DNA of 48,695 bases from Nitrospira sp. (GTDB lineage: Bacteria > Nitrospirota > Nitrospiria > Nitrospirales > Nitrospiraceae), in assembly GCA_020853775.1 (NCBI GenBank), contig JADYYH010000068.1:1-48695 (forward strand). The letters are read 5' to 3'. Position 1 is the first letter of the stretch, and every line of letters starts with the position of its first letter. Of the stretch, positions 28,661 to 36,000 are shown one piece after another. The notes under the pieces are model-generated. The model had not been told where the DNA came from, searched no databases, and worked only from the letters and a program-made list of their open reading frames with translations. Both the position numbers and the translations under genes were made by a program.

Positions 28661-30850
28661 TTAAAATCTCCATGAGACACCACCGTAGAAGTTCCGGATT
28701 TCACCGGGCTGAATGCCGATGAAACTGGCCGTGGTACGTTGCGCAATGAATGACTCATCGGTCAGATTGCGCACGCCGGCGAAAATCGCCCACTTCGCCT
28801 TCGGCGGAGCATAGTTAAGCCGGAGGTTCCAGATGGTATAGGACGGGATGGCGCCGTTCGTGCCTAAGGCATTTTCCGCCTGTGTATTCGCCCCATCAGT
28901 GAATTGCTGCGCGACATACATCGCATCGGCCTCAATCGACGCACCGGTCGGATGGTAATATCCCACCAATCCGTAGAACGTCATGCGCGGTGCATAGGGT
29001 AGATCTTTTCCATTGGTTGCTCCGAAGAGCGACTTGGGCCGCAAGAGCGTGATACTTCCACGCGTGACGAATCCTTGCAATGGGCGAACCATTTCGCCCC
29101 AATCGAGGCTCACCGTACTCTCGATGCCCTCCTGCAGAGTTTTTCCCGCATTGACGAACGCGCTGCCCTGCTGCACGATCTGATTCCTGAATTCCGTTCG
29201 GAAGACCGCGACTTCCGCGCTCACGCCGGGAATGATCGTGGATCGAAGGCCGATATCGGAACTCAACGCCCGTTCCGCCTCCAGATCCTGCGTCGTCCCG
29301 CTGGTAGGATCCACCGCGTTCGCAAACGTCGGCGGGCGAAAGGTGGTATGCACGTGGCCAAAGAGCATGCTGTCCGGCGTGAGTTGATACTTCACGCCGG
29401 TCCCGTAGATCAGGCCTTGTGTTGTTTTTGAATTTCTGAAATTGCCGCCCACCGGGGGCACGGCATTCATCGTCTCGCGACTCTGATTGACCTGCTCCCA
29501 GCGTATGCCCGGAGAAATCGTGAAGGCCTCGGTCAACCGGATGGCCGTCTCCGTATAGGCCGCATAGGCCACCGATTCCAGATCCGCGTTATTCGTCGTG
29601 CGACTGATCTTCGAGCCGGCCGTGCCGATGCCCTGAATATCGGTCAAGCGCTCGGCGTGATAGCGCACCCCGGACGTGATCTGTTGCTCCAATCCAAAGA
29701 GCGAAAATTTGAACTGATGTTGCGGCATTACACCGAAAACATTGAACTTGCGCAAAAAATTTGTACTGGTCTGGAGCAGCGCGCCCGTGGTGGCGTTCTG
29801 ATCTTGGACATACCAATTGCGCTCGAACACGTTGCCGTACACGATGATCTTAGCGGTGTTGTGGGCGTCGATCTCGCGGCTCGCGGTCACATCGACCGCC
29901 GTCCGCTGCCCCTTGAACTCATCCAGCGGCTTTCCCGCCAGCGTACGATCGTTGCGATATTGCGTGGGCGTAAGGCTCCCCGGCGTCTGCGTCGTTTCAT
30001 TGTAGTAGGAGAAATTCGTCGTGATCCGCGTCCGATCGTCGGGATTGGCTTCGAACCGCAGGGTGAAGTCGTCCAACTGCGATTTGCTGCGGTCTCTGAA
30101 GCCGTCCGATTGGCGTCGGAGATAGCCCATTTGCGCGCCGAAGTTTCCGAAGTATCCCCCGTACTGCGTGTCGCTCTGAAACAGGTTGAAGCTGCCGAAC
30201 GTGTTCGTCGTGGAGAACCTCGGCGTCGTGGGAATCCGTTTTTGAATGAAGTTAATCATCCCGCCCTGGGTGTTGGGCGAATAGAGAACGGAGGCTCCGC
30301 CTTTGATCACCTCGATATGATCGATGCGTTCGATCGGCACCATGTAATACGTCGAGGCATCTCCAAAAAGGGCCGGCTGGATGGGCACATCGTCCATCAA
30401 CAGAAGAATGTTCTTGCTGCGCCGGGGGTCCATGCCGCGGATGCCGATGTTGGGCCGCAACCCCTGGCCATATTCGTCCAGTACGTTGACCCCTGGAACG
30501 CGCCGCAACATTTCGTCCGCGTTTTTCGGCCGGGCTCGCTGAATTTCCTCGCGTGTGACGACATTGACCGCACCCGCGATGTCCTTTACCGACTCCTGAT
30601 CCGGTTCATTTCGCTCATGCACGTCTTTGACCACCACTTCGGGAATCTTCACCGGCTTAGACTTCGGCGATGGCGCGCCTTCGGCCACAGCTCCTGCGCC
30701 GTCCTCTTTGGACTCGGCCGCAGCGGCCTCCTGGCTTGGAACACCCGCCTCTATGCCTTCAGCCTGAGCAGAGATGCTCAGGCCACAGATAAGTCCTATT
30801 GCCAACAAACACACGACCCCTCCACCCATGCCCCGGATACATCCCGCCAT
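28661..30850 (-). CDS. TonB-dependent outer-membrane receptor
   Basis: A start at 30850 (AAGGAG eleven bases upstream; 30877 is an alternative) gives 729 residues with a signal peptide (cleavage near AQAEG). A TonB-box-like stretch (IPEVVVKDV) precedes the plug (EEIQRARPKNADEMLRRVPG, GIRGMDPRRSKNILLLMDDV, VEVIKGG-type motif), then a 22-strand barrel ending GGVSWRF. FecA-type siderophore receptors are the closest match in pattern; the ligand is unknown. It is followed by DUF4198 and PepSY genes. A terminator-like element sits only about 55 bases before the start, so expression may need antitermination. Confidence 0.93.
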   Translation of the reverse strand: MAGCIRGMGGGVVCLLAIGLICGLSISAQAEGIEAGVPSQEAAAAESKEDGAGAVAEGAPSPKSKPVKIPEVVVKDVHERNEPDQESVKDIAGAVNVVTREEIQRARPKNADEMLRRVPGVNVLDEYGQGLRPNIGIRGMDPRRSKNILLLMDDVPIQPALFGDASTYYMVPIERIDHIEVIKGGASVLYSPNTQGGMINFIQKRIPTTPRFSTTNTFGSFNLFQSDTQYGGYFGNFGAQMGYLRRQSDGFRDRSKSQLDDFTLRFEANPDDRTRITTNFSYYNETTQTPGSLTPTQYRNDRTLAGKPLDEFKGQRTAVDVTASREIDAHNTAKIIVYGNVFERNWYVQDQNATTGALLQTSTNFLRKFNVFGVMPQHQFKFSLFGLEQQITSGVRYHAERLTDIQGIGTAGSKISRTTNNADLESVAYAAYTETAIRLTEAFTISPGIRWEQVNQSRETMNAVPPVGGNFRNSKTTQGLIYGTGVKYQLTPDSMLFGHVHTTFRPPTFANAVDPTSGTTQDLEAERALSSDIGLRSTIIPGVSAEVAVFRTEFRNQIVQQGSAFVNAGKTLQEGIESTVSLDWGEMVRPLQGFVTRGSITLLRPKSLFGATNGKDLPYAPRMTFYGLVGYYHPTGASIEADAMYVAQQFTDGANTQAENALGTNGAIPSYTIWNLRLNYAPPKAKWAIFAGVRNLTDESFIAQRTTASFIGIQPGEIRNFYGGVSWRF

Positions 30851-30906
30851 GATTATGTGTTCTCCTTGTTCATTCACGGCCCCTCAGAAAGACATCAGCG
30901 CACAAT

Positions 30907-30974
30907 AAAAAAGCCCAAGACCGTGTTGATGGTCTTGGGCTCTGGACACTCAACGGTCCTTTGGCCTCTAGGAC
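30907..30974 (-). promoter_or_regulatory. Structured leader with terminator hairpin before the receptor gene
   Basis: On the minus strand AGGCCA is followed by a short stem (GGAC with GTCC), AGAGCCCAA, a perfect 11-bp hairpin (30912-30941) and six T: a textbook rho-independent terminator. It may end the zinc-ribbon transcript, or act as an attenuator for the receptor, since no room for a promoter remains before 30850. AGGAC in the short stem can also pair with GTCCT further 5', giving two exclusive folds. A similar element lies before the tonB-like gene. Confidence 0.6.
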
Positions 30975-30992
30975 ATGCCGGCAGCGGAGGGA

Positions 30993-31181
30993 TTAATTCG
31001 CGAGCATCGCGGGCGGCCTCCCTTCAATCGCCTCAAAATCAATAGTGACGAGACGCCGGCATCGCTTGCACTTGATTTCAATGCCCTGTTCCGCCCAGCG
31101 TGCGACAAGCTGTCCGCACCGGCACCGCACATCGTCGCAAGTCAGCATCCGGGCCGGTTCACGCTTCGTGCTGTTCGTCAT
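30993..31181 (-). CDS. Com-like zinc-ribbon protein
   Basis: From the ATG at 31181 (GGAGG seven bases upstream) the protein has 62 residues. The core VRCRCGQLVARW...IEIKCKRCRRLV with two cysteine pairs matches the Com family, named after the phage Mu zinc-finger protein that opens the mom mRNA for translation. Chromosomal copies have no settled role; they may bind nucleic acid. It ends about 20 bases before the structured leader of the receptor gene, and no phage gene is near. Confidence 0.75.
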   Translation of the reverse strand: MTNSTKREPARMLTCDDVRCRCGQLVARWAEQGIEIKCKRCRRLVTIDFEAIEGRPPAMLAN

Positions 31182-31235
31182 ACCAGTTCCTCCGCTCGAC
31201 GGCGTTTCTCCGCCGCTCTCGATTACCCGTCGCAT

Positions 31236-31694
31236 TTACTTAAAGGCGATTCGTTTGAGTTCGACCGCCGGTAATTCGACCTCACCGAAATCCGATTGCC
31301 CCTTAAAACTCCCGGCGATGGCCAGGGTGAACTCGCCGGCCTTTCCGTCGTTCAGCGTAATCGACACCGCCGGCGGCGTGCCGTTTCCAGACGGTTTCAC
31401 GTCGATCGTTTTGATGACATCGAACTTGATCTTGACCGTGGCGGTGCCACGTTTGACCGGCACCTCCTTCAACTCGTGCGGAACGAACGCGGTCTCACTG
31501 ATTTTCTCTTCCCAGTAGAAGATGACGCCGTGCACCTCGGTCTCGACACCTTTTACATCGGTCGCCACGACCTGAAACGCCTTCTCGCCTTTTGGCTGTG
31601 CGAGCGCTGTCTCGGCCACCAACCACAACAGGCAGGCACTGAACAGGACCGCGCCTACCAATCCACTACGTACCTTCTGTATGCCAGTGTTCAT
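31236..31694 (-). CDS. Exported protein of unknown function
   Basis: From the ATG at 31694 (AAGGAG upstream) the protein has 152 residues with a signal peptide ending near ALAQPKG. The mature part is beta-rich (EVHGVIFYWEEKISETAFV, TVKIKFDVIKTIDVKP, GEFTLAIAGSFKG) without cysteines or obvious motifs. I do not recognise a family. Its position between the tonB-like and zinc-ribbon genes, 40 bases after the former, suggests a periplasmic accessory of the same uptake system. Confidence 0.7.
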   Translation of the reverse strand: MNTGIQKVRSGLVGAVLFSACLLWLVAETALAQPKGEKAFQVVATDVKGVETEVHGVIFYWEEKISETAFVPHELKEVPVKRGTATVKIKFDVIKTIDVKPSGNGTPPAVSITLNDGKAGEFTLAIAGSFKGQSDFGEVELPAVELKRIAFK

Positions 31695-31734
31695 GATGCA
31701 ACTCCTTGATCCACGCGTAATGACGCTGCTGCTG

Positions 31735-32781
31735 TTAACTTTCAAGCCGATAGGCGATCGGCACCAGAATGGTAATGTGCTCTTTCCCCAGCGGGTGTTT
31801 CAGGGCGAGCGGAGACGCTTTCCGCAACACCGAGATGGCATCCTGATCCAGCAAGCCATGGCCGGAGCTTTCGGCGATCAAACATTCCAGAATCGTTCCG
31901 TCATGTCGGATCACCGCTTCCAGCACCACTTTGCCTTCCCAGCGGCGGGCCCGCGCCTGCCTGGGGTATCGTTTCAATTCTTCAATCCGTGTCCACAGCG
32001 ATTCCGCCAACCACCCCAGATCGGCTTGCGCCGCCGCTTCGCGCACTTCACGATGCGCGACTGGACTCTGGTGCACCACCACCGGCTCCGATTCAACCGT
32101 ATGCTGCGGCTCACTGAGGGAAGACGTTGCACTTACGACAGGCATGTCAGTCTCGACGACCGCCTGTGCGACGATGGCCGGCTGCTCTACCGCGGCCGCC
32201 GAAGTCTCAACAGGAACCGCCGACTCCTGCACCACTGCTTCCGACAACTGCGCCGTCACCATTTGGCTTTTGACGGGCTGAACAATGTCATGACTTTCCT
32301 GCTGCACGACTTCTTGGGCGTGGGCCACGACGGCGACCGCTTCGTGAACCGGTTGAGATGCGACGGGCTGTACCTCAGTCACTACCGCCTGCCGTTCCTG
32401 GGGTGCGGATCGTTCCACCACACGGGGCATGACTTGCGTCGCCTGAACCGTTTGAACGACGGCCGTCCGCTCCACGACCTGGGGGACCGGCGCTGGGGAA
32501 GGCTTCGCCACAGGGCGAGACACTGGTTGTTTTGGCTGTGGCGGTTCCGAGACTGGTTGTTGTGAAGGGGTGGACTCAGTAGCGACAGGACTCGGCGGGG
32601 GCGCTGGTTGCAAAGCGACGTCCCATCGAAAGGTCTCCGGTTGCAGGTGAGGTTTCACATCCATCATAGGCTGCATCACAAGGGCCACAAGGCCGCCATG
32701 CAGCATCAATGAGATCAGCCACCCTCCGCTGCGAGATCCGCGTACACGCGCCATATGTGCCGTGAGTGCGACTTCCGACAT
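31735..32781 (-). CDS. TonB-family energy-transducing protein
   Basis: The start at 32781 has GGGAGG before the ATG; a longer frame to 33009 crosses the hairpin and operator and is rejected. The 348 residues comprise a membrane helix (GWLISLMLHGGLVALVM), a long Pro/Gln/Val-rich periplasmic spacer of about 190 residues, and a TonB C-terminal domain (YPRQARARRWEGKVVLEAVI, LDQDAISVLRKASPL). It should couple the proton-driven ExbBD motor to the nearby receptor. exbB and exbD are not in this window. Confidence 0.9.
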   Translation of the reverse strand: MSEVALTAHMARVRGSRSGGWLISLMLHGGLVALVMQPMMDVKPHLQPETFRWDVALQPAPPPSPVATESTPSQQPVSEPPQPKQPVSRPVAKPSPAPVPQVVERTAVVQTVQATQVMPRVVERSAPQERQAVVTEVQPVASQPVHEAVAVVAHAQEVVQQESHDIVQPVKSQMVTAQLSEAVVQESAVPVETSAAAVEQPAIVAQAVVETDMPVVSATSSLSEPQHTVESEPVVVHQSPVAHREVREAAAQADLGWLAESLWTRIEELKRYPRQARARRWEGKVVLEAVIRHDGTILECLIAESSGHGLLDQDAISVLRKASPLALKHPLGKEHITILVPIAYRLES

Positions 32782-32828
32782 TCTCAGACCTCCCTCGCTC
32801 GACAACACAACCAAATCCTGTCCACCAA

Positions 32829-32892
32829 CAAACAAAAGCCCAAAGCTGTCGGGTGACAACTTTGGGCTCTGACCGCAGGGGTCGCTGGCCTT
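32829..32892 (-). promoter_or_regulatory. Structured leader with terminator hairpin before the tonB-like gene
   Basis: On the minus strand AGGCCA, a short stem (GACC with GGTC), AGAGCCCAA and a long hairpin (32837-32868) followed by TTTTGTTTG mirror the element at 30907-30974. The hairpin ends about 55 bases before the tonB-like start, so it could attenuate that gene, or end the efflux operon transcript that stops at 33070. Confidence 0.55.
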
Positions 32893-32974
32893 ATTCGAAT
32901 GTGGTGCGAACTCGACGCACACTCTGCGTCGCTGCCCCAAACTTACCGGGGAGGGGGGGGCTCCCGGCAAGTCT

Positions 32975-32989
32975 TGATAGCAATTCTCA
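32975..32989 (-). promoter_or_regulatory. Fur-box-like operator
   Basis: The minus strand reads TGAGAATTGCTATCA, matching 11 of 14 defined positions of the Fur 7-1-7 core TGATAATnATTATCA. It lies about 195 bases before the tonB-like start and upstream of the leader element, where an iron-repressed promoter would fit. Confidence 0.5.
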
Positions 32990-33069
32990 ATATCATGATC
33001 GCGAATCAATTGTCAATGTGCATCTCGTCACAATGGCGACGGAGGACACTATGTATTTCGTGCGAGTCT

Positions 33070-36000
33070 TTATGCGGCGGGGTGCGGAGAGGTTTCTCGG
33101 GCCCGGACCCATCGTAGTCGTAAACGATCCAGAAGTAGGTATATGACCGGCGTCGTGTAGAGGGTGAGGACCTGACTCACCAGAAGTCCGCCCACGATGG
33201 CGATACCAAGCGGGCGCCGGAGTTCCGATCCGACGCCCATGCCCACGGCCAGGGGTAACGCACCCAGCAGAGCTGCCGCCGTGGTCATCATGATCGGACG
33301 GAACCGCAGCAAGCAGGCCTCGTAAATCGCGGCTTGCGGGGTCTTCCCTTCTCCCATTCGTTCACTCTGCAAGGCAAAATCGATCATCATGATGGCGTTT
33401 TTTTTCACAATGCCGATTAGCAGCATGATCCCGATCAAGGCAATCATGCTCAGTTCCGCCTTAAACAGCAGTAATGCCAACAAGGCGCCGACGCCGGCCG
33501 AAGGCAGCGTGGAGAGAATCGTCAGGGGATGAATGTAACTCTCATAGAGAATCCCCAGCACGATATACACCGTGACCAACGCCGCCAGAATGAGCCACGG
33601 CTGATTCTCAACCGACGATTGAAACGCTTTGGCCGTTCCTTGAAATGTCCCCCGCACAGTCGCCGGCAAGCCGATGTCGCGCATCGCCGAATCAACAGCC
33701 ACGACAGCCTCGCCCAACGACACGCCGGGAGCCATATTGAATGATATCGTCACCGCAGGAAATTGCCCCTGATGGTTGACGGACAGGATCGTATTGGCCG
33801 GTTCATACCGTGTCACAGCGCTCAGCGGCACTTGGGCACCGCTCGGGGAGCGGACATAGATCTCATGCAAGGCAGAAGGATTCTGCCAATATTGCGGCGC
33901 CACCTCCATCACCACGTGGTATTGATTGAGCGGCGTATACATGATCGACACCTGCCGCTGGCCGAAGGCGTCGTATAAGGTATCGTCGATCAGCTGGGGG
34001 CTCAACCCGAGCCGAGACGCGGTGGTCCGATCGAAGACGACCAGGGATTGCTGCCCCCGATCCTGCTGATCGCTGTTCACATCCACAATTTCCGGAAGCG
34101 TCCGCAGTTTGACGTCCACTTTGGGCGCCCAGGTGTTGAGTTCGGCGAGATCCATGCTCTGCAGTGTATATTGATACTGTGCGCTGCTGGCCCGCCCCCC
34201 GATACGTAGATCCTGAATGGCCTGCAGATAAGTCGGAGCGCCAGGCACCTTCGCCAGTTTGGGACGCAGCCGGCCAATCACCTCGTCGGAACTGAGGCCG
34301 CGTTCGTCGAGCGGCTTCAAGGCAATAAACATCCGCCCTGTATTGGTCGTGCCGGCATGGCCCCCGCCGCCCGTGAAGCCGGTGATGCTTGCGACGGCAG
34401 GATCGCTCTTGATGATCTCCACCACTTCGGTCAGTTTCTGACGCATGGCTTGAAATGAGATATCCTGCGCCGCCTGAATATTTCCGAATAACCGTCCGGT
34501 ATCCTGCTGGGGAAAGAATCCTTTGGGCACAAGGATGTACAAATACACCGTGAGTGCCATGGTGCCTAAGGTCACCCCCAGCATGAGACGCGGGTGGCGG
34601 AGCACCCAGGTCAGGCTACTGGCATACCCACGCAGCATGACACCGAACCCCCGCTCGCTCATGCGATACCACCAGCCATGTTTTTGAGCCGAATCCGACT
34701 TCAGCACACGCGCGCACAGCGTGGGAATCGTCGTGAGTGAGATGAGCAGCGACACCAGAATCGCCACCGACAGCGTGACGGCGAATTCCCGAAACAACCG
34801 GCCGAGCATTCCGCCCATCAGAAAAATGGGAATGAACACCGCAACCAGCGAGAGAGTCATCGACACGACTGTAAAGGCGATATCCTTGGCGCCCCGCAGG
34901 GCCGCATCCATAGCCGGCACACCCTGCTCGCGATACCGTGTGATGTTTTCCAACACCACGATCGCGTCGTCGACTACGAATCCGGTCGCAATCGTCAGCG
35001 CCATGAGCGAGAGATTGTCGAGGCTATAACCGAGCACATACATGACGCCAAACGTCGACACCAACGACACGGGAACGGCCACGGCCGGAATCAGCGTGGC
35101 GCGCAGATCGCGGAGAAACGCGAACACCACCAAAATCACGAGGGCCACGGAAATGGCGAGCGTCCGCTCGACATCATGCAACGAGGCGCGAATGACCGGC
35201 GTACGATCCATCACGATGGACAGGGACATACTGCCCGGCAAGGACGCCTCCAGTTGCGGCAAGCGCGCACGGAGACGATCGACCGTTTCAATAATATTCG
35301 CTCCGGCCTGTCGATAAATGATCACTAAGACAGCCGGCGTCCCGTTCGCCACTCCCATCGTCCGCAAATCTTCGACCGACGCTTCCACCGACGCCACGTC
35401 GGACAGGTGCACCGCCCGCCCGTTACGATAGGCCACGATCAGCGGCAGATATTCATCGGCTTTGTGCAACTGATCGTTCGTCCTGATTTCCCAGGTATGA
35501 TCGTCGGAGGTCAGTTGGCCTTTCGGACGATTCACATTGGTACTGCTCAGCACCTGGCGCACCTCTCCCAACCCGATGCCATACTTGTTCAACGCAGTGG
35601 GATTGAGATCAACTCGGACCGCCGGTAAGGATCCTCCGCCCACCGCCACCTGGCCGACGCCTTCCACCTGCGACAGTTTCTGCTGCAGGATGCTCGACGC
35701 CGCATCGTACATTTGTCCGCGCGTGACGAGTTCAGACGTGATGGCCAAAATGAGGATGGGGCCGTCGGCGGGATTCACCTTGCTGTACTTGGGGGCGGTC
35801 GGCAGATTCGACGGGAGATCGGCCCGGGCGGCATTAATCGCCGCTTGCACATCACGTGCGGCACCATCGATATCCCGGTTGAGCTCAAACTGGAGCGTGA
35901 CGTTTGTTCCGCCGATGGTGCTGGAGGACGTCATCTCCGTGACGCCGGCAATACGAGTGAACTGGCGCTCCAACGGAGCGGCCACGGAGGAAGCCATCGT

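Follow-up and report, generated by a model that had tools for sequence, protein, structure and literature searches.

A leader RNA element preceding iron-uptake genes in Nitrospira-type bacteria and its association with a small Com-like Cys4 protein

Nitrospira-type bacteria carry a short RNA element, a putative switch, in front of many iron-uptake genes. It is usually accompanied by a small, putative zinc-finger protein that is remotely homologous to Com, an RNA-binding translational activator of phage Mu, and together the two suggest a two-part RNA control system for iron. No description of this element or of a chromosomal Com regulon was found in the literature searched, which left out most subscription papers and all preprints. 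The starting point was a 48,695-nucleotide stretch of DNA from Nitrospira sp. (contig JADYYH010000068.1 of assembly GCA_020853775.1, hereafter referred to as the window), which is one contig of a 4.25 Mb genome. On its minus strand the order is two RND pump genes, element A, tonB, a gene for a 152-residue protein, a gene for a 62-residue Cys4 protein, element B, a TonB-dependent receptor gene, and genes for a DUF4198 protein, a PepSY protein and a histidine kinase.

In a preliminary description based on the sequence alone, it was noted that similar RNA-like leaders precede the tonB-like gene and the receptor gene. That observation is confirmed, and both elements read as had been described. Element A (minus strand, 32833 to 32890) consists of GGCCA, a short stem referred to as P1 (GACC/GGTC, 32871 to 32883), AGAGCCCAA, a terminator-like hairpin referred to as P2 (32835 to 32870), and a T-rich tail. 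Element B (minus strand, 30907 to 30966) consists of GGCCA, P1 (GGAC/GTCC, 30944 to 30959), AGAGCCCAA, P2 (30910 to 30943), and a T run. The start codons lie about 50-57 nt beyond the hairpin tails, with the ATG of tonB at 32781 and that of the receptor at 30850. Both elements fold better than dinucleotide shuffles, with z-scores of -3.75 and -4.91 for A and B, respectively. A terminator scan of positions 30800 to 33150 located both hairpins, and its third hit is nested within element A. Two corrections to the preliminary description are required, however. It was proposed that AGGAC in the receptor copy can pair with either side, but this is particular to that copy and is not a feature of the other classes of element, and it was thus not retained. 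The alternative that recurs is the pairing of the 5' GGC with the GCC of AGAGCCC, referred to as P0; in element A the 5' arm at 32888 to 32890 can pair with GCC at 32865 to 32867. In addition, two copies was an undercount, as the genome holds four more candidates.

The tonB gene (minus strand, 31735 to 32781) encodes a TonB_C domain (PF03544, E 2.2e-16). The following gene (minus strand, 31236 to 31694) encodes the 152-residue protein, which has no Pfam match. The Com-like gene, which encodes the proposed trans factor (minus strand, 30993 to 31181), ends 26 nt before element B, and the receptor gene (minus strand, 28661 to 30850, its start assigned from orthologues) encodes a protein matching PF00593 and PF07715. 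Upstream of tonB there is a sigma-70-like promoter, TTGACA-16-GATATT (minus strand, 32989 to 33016), which is a consensus match only, with 10 of 12 positions and one site found against a shuffle mean of 0.5. A Fur-box-like site, GATATTGAGAATTGCTATC (minus strand, 32976 to 32994), overlaps its -10 and matches a Fur consensus at 14 of 19 positions. A C-rich inverted repeat (CCGGG..CCCGG) lies between this site and element A at 32946 to 32967.

The two elements share GGC(C/T), a small variable P1, AGAGCCC and a terminator-type P2, and they belong to an RNA family. The pattern GGCCA-N8-24-CAGAGCCCAA occurs in 23 of 29 genomes of the genus in recurring contexts, and is not there by chance. An alignment of 25 copies from three contexts shows invariant GGCCA, CAGAGCCCAA and TTGGGCT with two covarying stems. 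A covariance model, R1, gave nine matches at E≤10 in the source genome. Six are full-length copies, namely elements A (63.2 bits) and B (71.8 bits), those at C41:13745-13806 before an HD-domain gene, C105:95993-96055 before a periplasmic protein gene and C29:218-276 before an AraC-TonB pair (C denotes contigs of this genome), and a weak one at C41:12821-12883, just upstream of a second Com-like gene and partly inside an overlapping reading frame. The remaining three are partial matches on the opposite strand of the same hairpins. R1 finds the element in 29 of 29 genomes of the genus. In a second, sequence-only alignment of 30 copies of the other classes, 10 of 18 pairs change on both sides, and there are 92 such doubly changed cells against 31.8 in shuffles and 3 to 29 in slid controls, such that P1 and P2 covary strongly. 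Model R2, built from this alignment, finds the element in 144 of 175 genomes and 17 of 22 genera of the family, and in 134 of 395 genomes of a phylum sample. Of these, 36 lie outside the family among 285 sampled, although five of the 36 are weak (E 0.002-0.007) and not far from what chance gives at that threshold. No Rfam family matched the window at its gathering score. In a search of six loci at E≤10 the only match at an element was NsiR1 at 30.2 bits against a cut-off of 39, which is taken as chance hairpin similarity.

Among 112 distinct copies, GGC is present in 110, the 7-mer is AGAGCCC in 98, and its GCC core is kept in 110. In the families denoted f7, f12 and f32 the 7-mer becomes AAAGCCC and the base after GGC becomes T or G in most copies seen, which fits a three-pair P0. 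The minimum free energy fold of the 5' half alone is closed by GGC/GCC, followed by an internal loop and P1, in 102 of 112 copies against 648 of 1120 controls with shuffled interiors. This is a modest excess given that the controls also close it in 58%, and P0 is too invariant to provide covariation support. P2 uses the same AGAGCCC, and thus the two folds exclude each other. A pairing of 5' AGAGGCC with the 3' arm GGCUUU was also considered, but was dropped because the 5' AGA is not conserved in classes A and C. Both window copies show a stable hairpin followed by a T-rich stretch, and at least 6 T in 9 nt follow P2 in 97 of 111 copies, with AGAGCCC placed by an approximate pattern in this count. 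Several class C copies, including the one in this genome, lack a good U tract. Start codons lie about 15-28 nt after P2 for most HD and several AraC genes and about 50 nt for tonB, receptor and class D genes. The class D leaders at loci L087, L093 and L094 (L denotes the loci examined) carry an extra inverted repeat after P2, shortly before the start codon. In L190 (1501-1565 and the next 120 nt), and likewise in L203, tandem elements lie between com and a porin-like gene, the second copy having its P2 directly before the Shine-Dalgarno site. In loci L186, L187, L191, L192, L193, L194, L196, L199 and L210 of family f2, a second GC-rich hairpin with CTCCTCCTG or similar in or near its loop follows the element by about 10-110 nt. 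It recurs across genera and may be a further regulatory RNA.

The downstream genes are mostly tonB, exbB, TonB receptors, AraC regulators, HD-domain proteins, a multicopper oxidase and a Bfd-type ferredoxin. Pfam searches with 20 selected proteins, 19 of them encoded downstream of elements, revealed a multicopper oxidase, a BFD-type ferredoxin, ExbB (two), TonB, STN, HD_5 (two), AraC (two), AMP-binding, weak MauG-like and porin matches, a β-propeller, and several with no informative match. The twentieth is the FMN-binding protein upstream of class C. The class C locus also holds FbpABC-, ExbBD- and TonB-like genes, named by eye from their translations. In loci L198 and L200 a family of small proteins (about 60-80 residues) follows the element, in families f12 and f7. 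The theme is iron handling, but some targets, such as the class D periplasmic protein and the HD-domain protein, are not proven iron genes.

The element is coupled to the Com-like gene in both genomic position and phyletic distribution. The source genome has four good Com-like genes (E≤1.5e-6): one in the window, two on C41 flanking the class C element, and one on C53 beside a TonB receptor, a PepSY and a Fur-like gene (named by eye), where no convincing element was detected. Forty-nine of the 85 loci scanned hold a Com-like gene. Among 150 elements and 150 Com-like genes, at least 86 elements have a Com-like gene within 5 kb against 0.43 expected. All 86 are on the same strand, and in 15 of them the Com core ends 34-55 nt upstream of the element. 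Sixty-eight of the 86 lie at 3.0-3.7 kb in the class C order, which is one inherited arrangement and not 68 independent events. In an independent test, 80 loci were chosen by the Com protein alone, these being the best 80 of 225, and 70 of them, counted by hand, carry a full-length element, always on the com strand; the ten misses include short, cut contigs. The named relatives found in this way are Nitrospira, including Nitrospira moscoviensis, in which com, element and target start lie within 300 nt. Within the family of 175 genomes, both occur in 134, the element only in 10, Com only in 14, and neither in 17 (Fisher P 5e-9, not corrected for kinship or completeness). The ten genomes with an element but no detected Com-like gene include four, designated G069, G079, G134 and G161, that are listed as 98-99% complete. 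Outside the family the corresponding counts, made by hand for 285 genomes, are 32, 4, 13 and 236. At L044 (2813-2980) a diverged Com-like gene lies on the strand opposite to its TonB receptor and PepSY neighbors, with no convincing element, and at L172 (5824-5987) two elements lie 37 nt apart, the second overlapping the 5' part of a Com-like open frame.

The Com-like proteins contain about 60 residues, with four cysteines, the putative zinc ligands, invariant in 20 of 20 aligned rows, although the first pair is CxC rather than CxxC. A profile-profile alignment with Mu Com itself gave a probability of 94.2 and an E-value of 1.1e-7 over 30 columns. Pfam Zn_ribbon_Com (PF10122) is the most frequent weak match, with 9 of 20 rows at E≤1 and a best E of 2.1e-4; the scores seen, 13.9 and 16.1, lie below the gathering cut-off of 22.9. 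A sequence search of the PDB with the Com-like profile gave no convincing relative. Com of phage Mu binds CC(N)2-3GAG in a hairpin next to the translation-inhibition structure of mom and activates mom translation, and SELEX yields two GAG(N)2CC cores on both sides of a variable stem of 3-4 nt (PMC6483171). The elements described here carry CC(N)1-3GAG at the 3' site in 95 of 112 copies, at the 5' site in 75, and at both in 72, around a short variable P1. At the 3' site the spacing is N2-3 in 53, N1 in 42, and no motif is present in 17, and this is thus resemblance, not proof.

With regard to the iron signal, GATATTAATAATCGTTCTC or a close variant lies upstream of the main com gene in 32 of 32 loci examined, matching a Fur consensus at 14-15 of 19 positions, whereas 5 of 1200 random stretches reach 14. 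That these are Fur sites is inferred.

On the basis of these data, the two elements are best regarded as members of a protein-responsive leader RNA family of Nitrospirota that controls iron-homeostasis genes, a reading to which we assign a probability of roughly 0.66. In this view each RNA forms either the 5' hairpin (P0, an internal loop and P1) or P2 (AGAGCCC with GGGCUYU). P2 with its U tract would end transcription or, where it abuts the Shine-Dalgarno site, hinder translation. The Com-like protein, which should be made when iron is scarce if the conserved site is indeed a Fur box, would bind the 5' half and keep P2 from forming, thereby switching the downstream gene on. What the analysis establishes is the RNA family with its covarying stems and target genes, its coupling to the Com-like gene, the remote homology to Mu Com, and the Fur-box-like site. 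The binding of the protein, activation as its direction, the level of control (mainly antitermination, and translation at short-spaced copies), regulated read-through, and iron as the signal are inferred from sequence alone; this mechanism is the simplest reading of the data. The interpretation offered in the preliminary description, namely a metal- or cofactor-responsive attenuator matching no familiar riboswitch, is partly supported. The elements are attenuator-like regulatory leaders shared by functionally linked genes, with mutually exclusive pairings and no match to a known riboswitch. Occurrence at many unrelated gene ends, which had been set beforehand as grounds for rejection, is not observed, as the genome has about six copies, mostly before iron-related genes. 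Direct binding of a metal or cofactor is not supported as the leading reading, given the coupling to the Com-like protein, but a ligand role cannot be excluded.

A less likely alternative is that the Com-like protein binds the element with the opposite sign, stabilizing P2 or blocking the ribosome and so repressing, for example as feedback on its own operon. Com paralogues closely preceded by an element (L148, L153 and L172, and also L222, L239 and L252) allow autoregulation. Mu Com is an activator, however (PMC6483171), and a Fur-controlled com that represses iron uptake under iron scarcity would be illogical for most targets. About equally unlikely is a small-molecule or metal riboswitch, in which the 5' hairpin with its internal loop is the aptamer for iron, haem or another metal, P2 is the expression platform, and the Com-like protein is merely a neighbor. 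The mutually exclusive folds, the strong conservation of GGC and AGAGCCC, the iron-related targets, and the ten genomes with an element but no detected Com are in its favor. Yet the conserved core is very small for an aptamer, the coupling to com across families in the phylum is left unexplained, and there is no Rfam riboswitch match. Ordinary intergenic terminators that tune gene ratios in iron operons, conserved through shared ancestry only, are the least likely, for although most copies have P2 plus a U tract and element B sits between two operon genes, the GGC and the covarying P1 are conserved outside P2 and spread over unrelated downstream genes and many families, a pattern of GCCCAA..TTGGGCT plus a T run occurs only at these two places in the genome, and the second copies in L190 and L203 keep the 5' module though P2 there is no typical terminator.

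The closest known system is com-mom of phage Mu, which likewise has a small Cys4 protein, a com gene directly upstream of the target, and an RNA hairpin site with CC..GAG motifs beside an inhibitory structure (PMC6483171). The present system differs in being chromosomal, with many target genes, Fur-box-like control of com, a terminator-type P2 rather than a translation-inhibition stem, a CxC first knuckle, and mostly N1-N2 spacing. Com-like genes (PF10122) immediately precede unrelated LlpA bacteriocin genes on Pseudomonas chromosomes, their role being stated as unexplored, with no defined RNA element or iron regulon in the account seen (PMC6240691). In protein-dependent attenuators of the LicT/SacY, TRAP and PyrR types, an RNA-binding protein decides between a 5' structure and an overlapping terminator, the protein and RNA being unrelated to those described here. 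The RyhB sRNA and NiCo-type metal riboswitches provide a second, RNA-level layer of iron or metal regulation; here there is a cis element plus a putative zinc-finger protein, without sRNA or ligand evidence. An unlikely possibility is that the Com-like proteins are themselves iron-responsive RNA-binding regulators, their CxC...CxxC site responding to iron as well as zinc, which with this element would form a phylum-wide post-transcriptional iron regulon in Nitrospirota, a bacterial counterpart of the IRE/IRP system related by descent to phage Com.

Nitrospira are key nitrite and complete ammonia oxidizers, and iron is costly for them. A dedicated RNA element with a protein partner would add a regulatory layer below Fur, would give the Com family, whose role on chromosomes is described as unexplored (PMC6240691), a defined regulon and RNA target, and would offer over a hundred natural site variants with which to solve how Com reads RNA.
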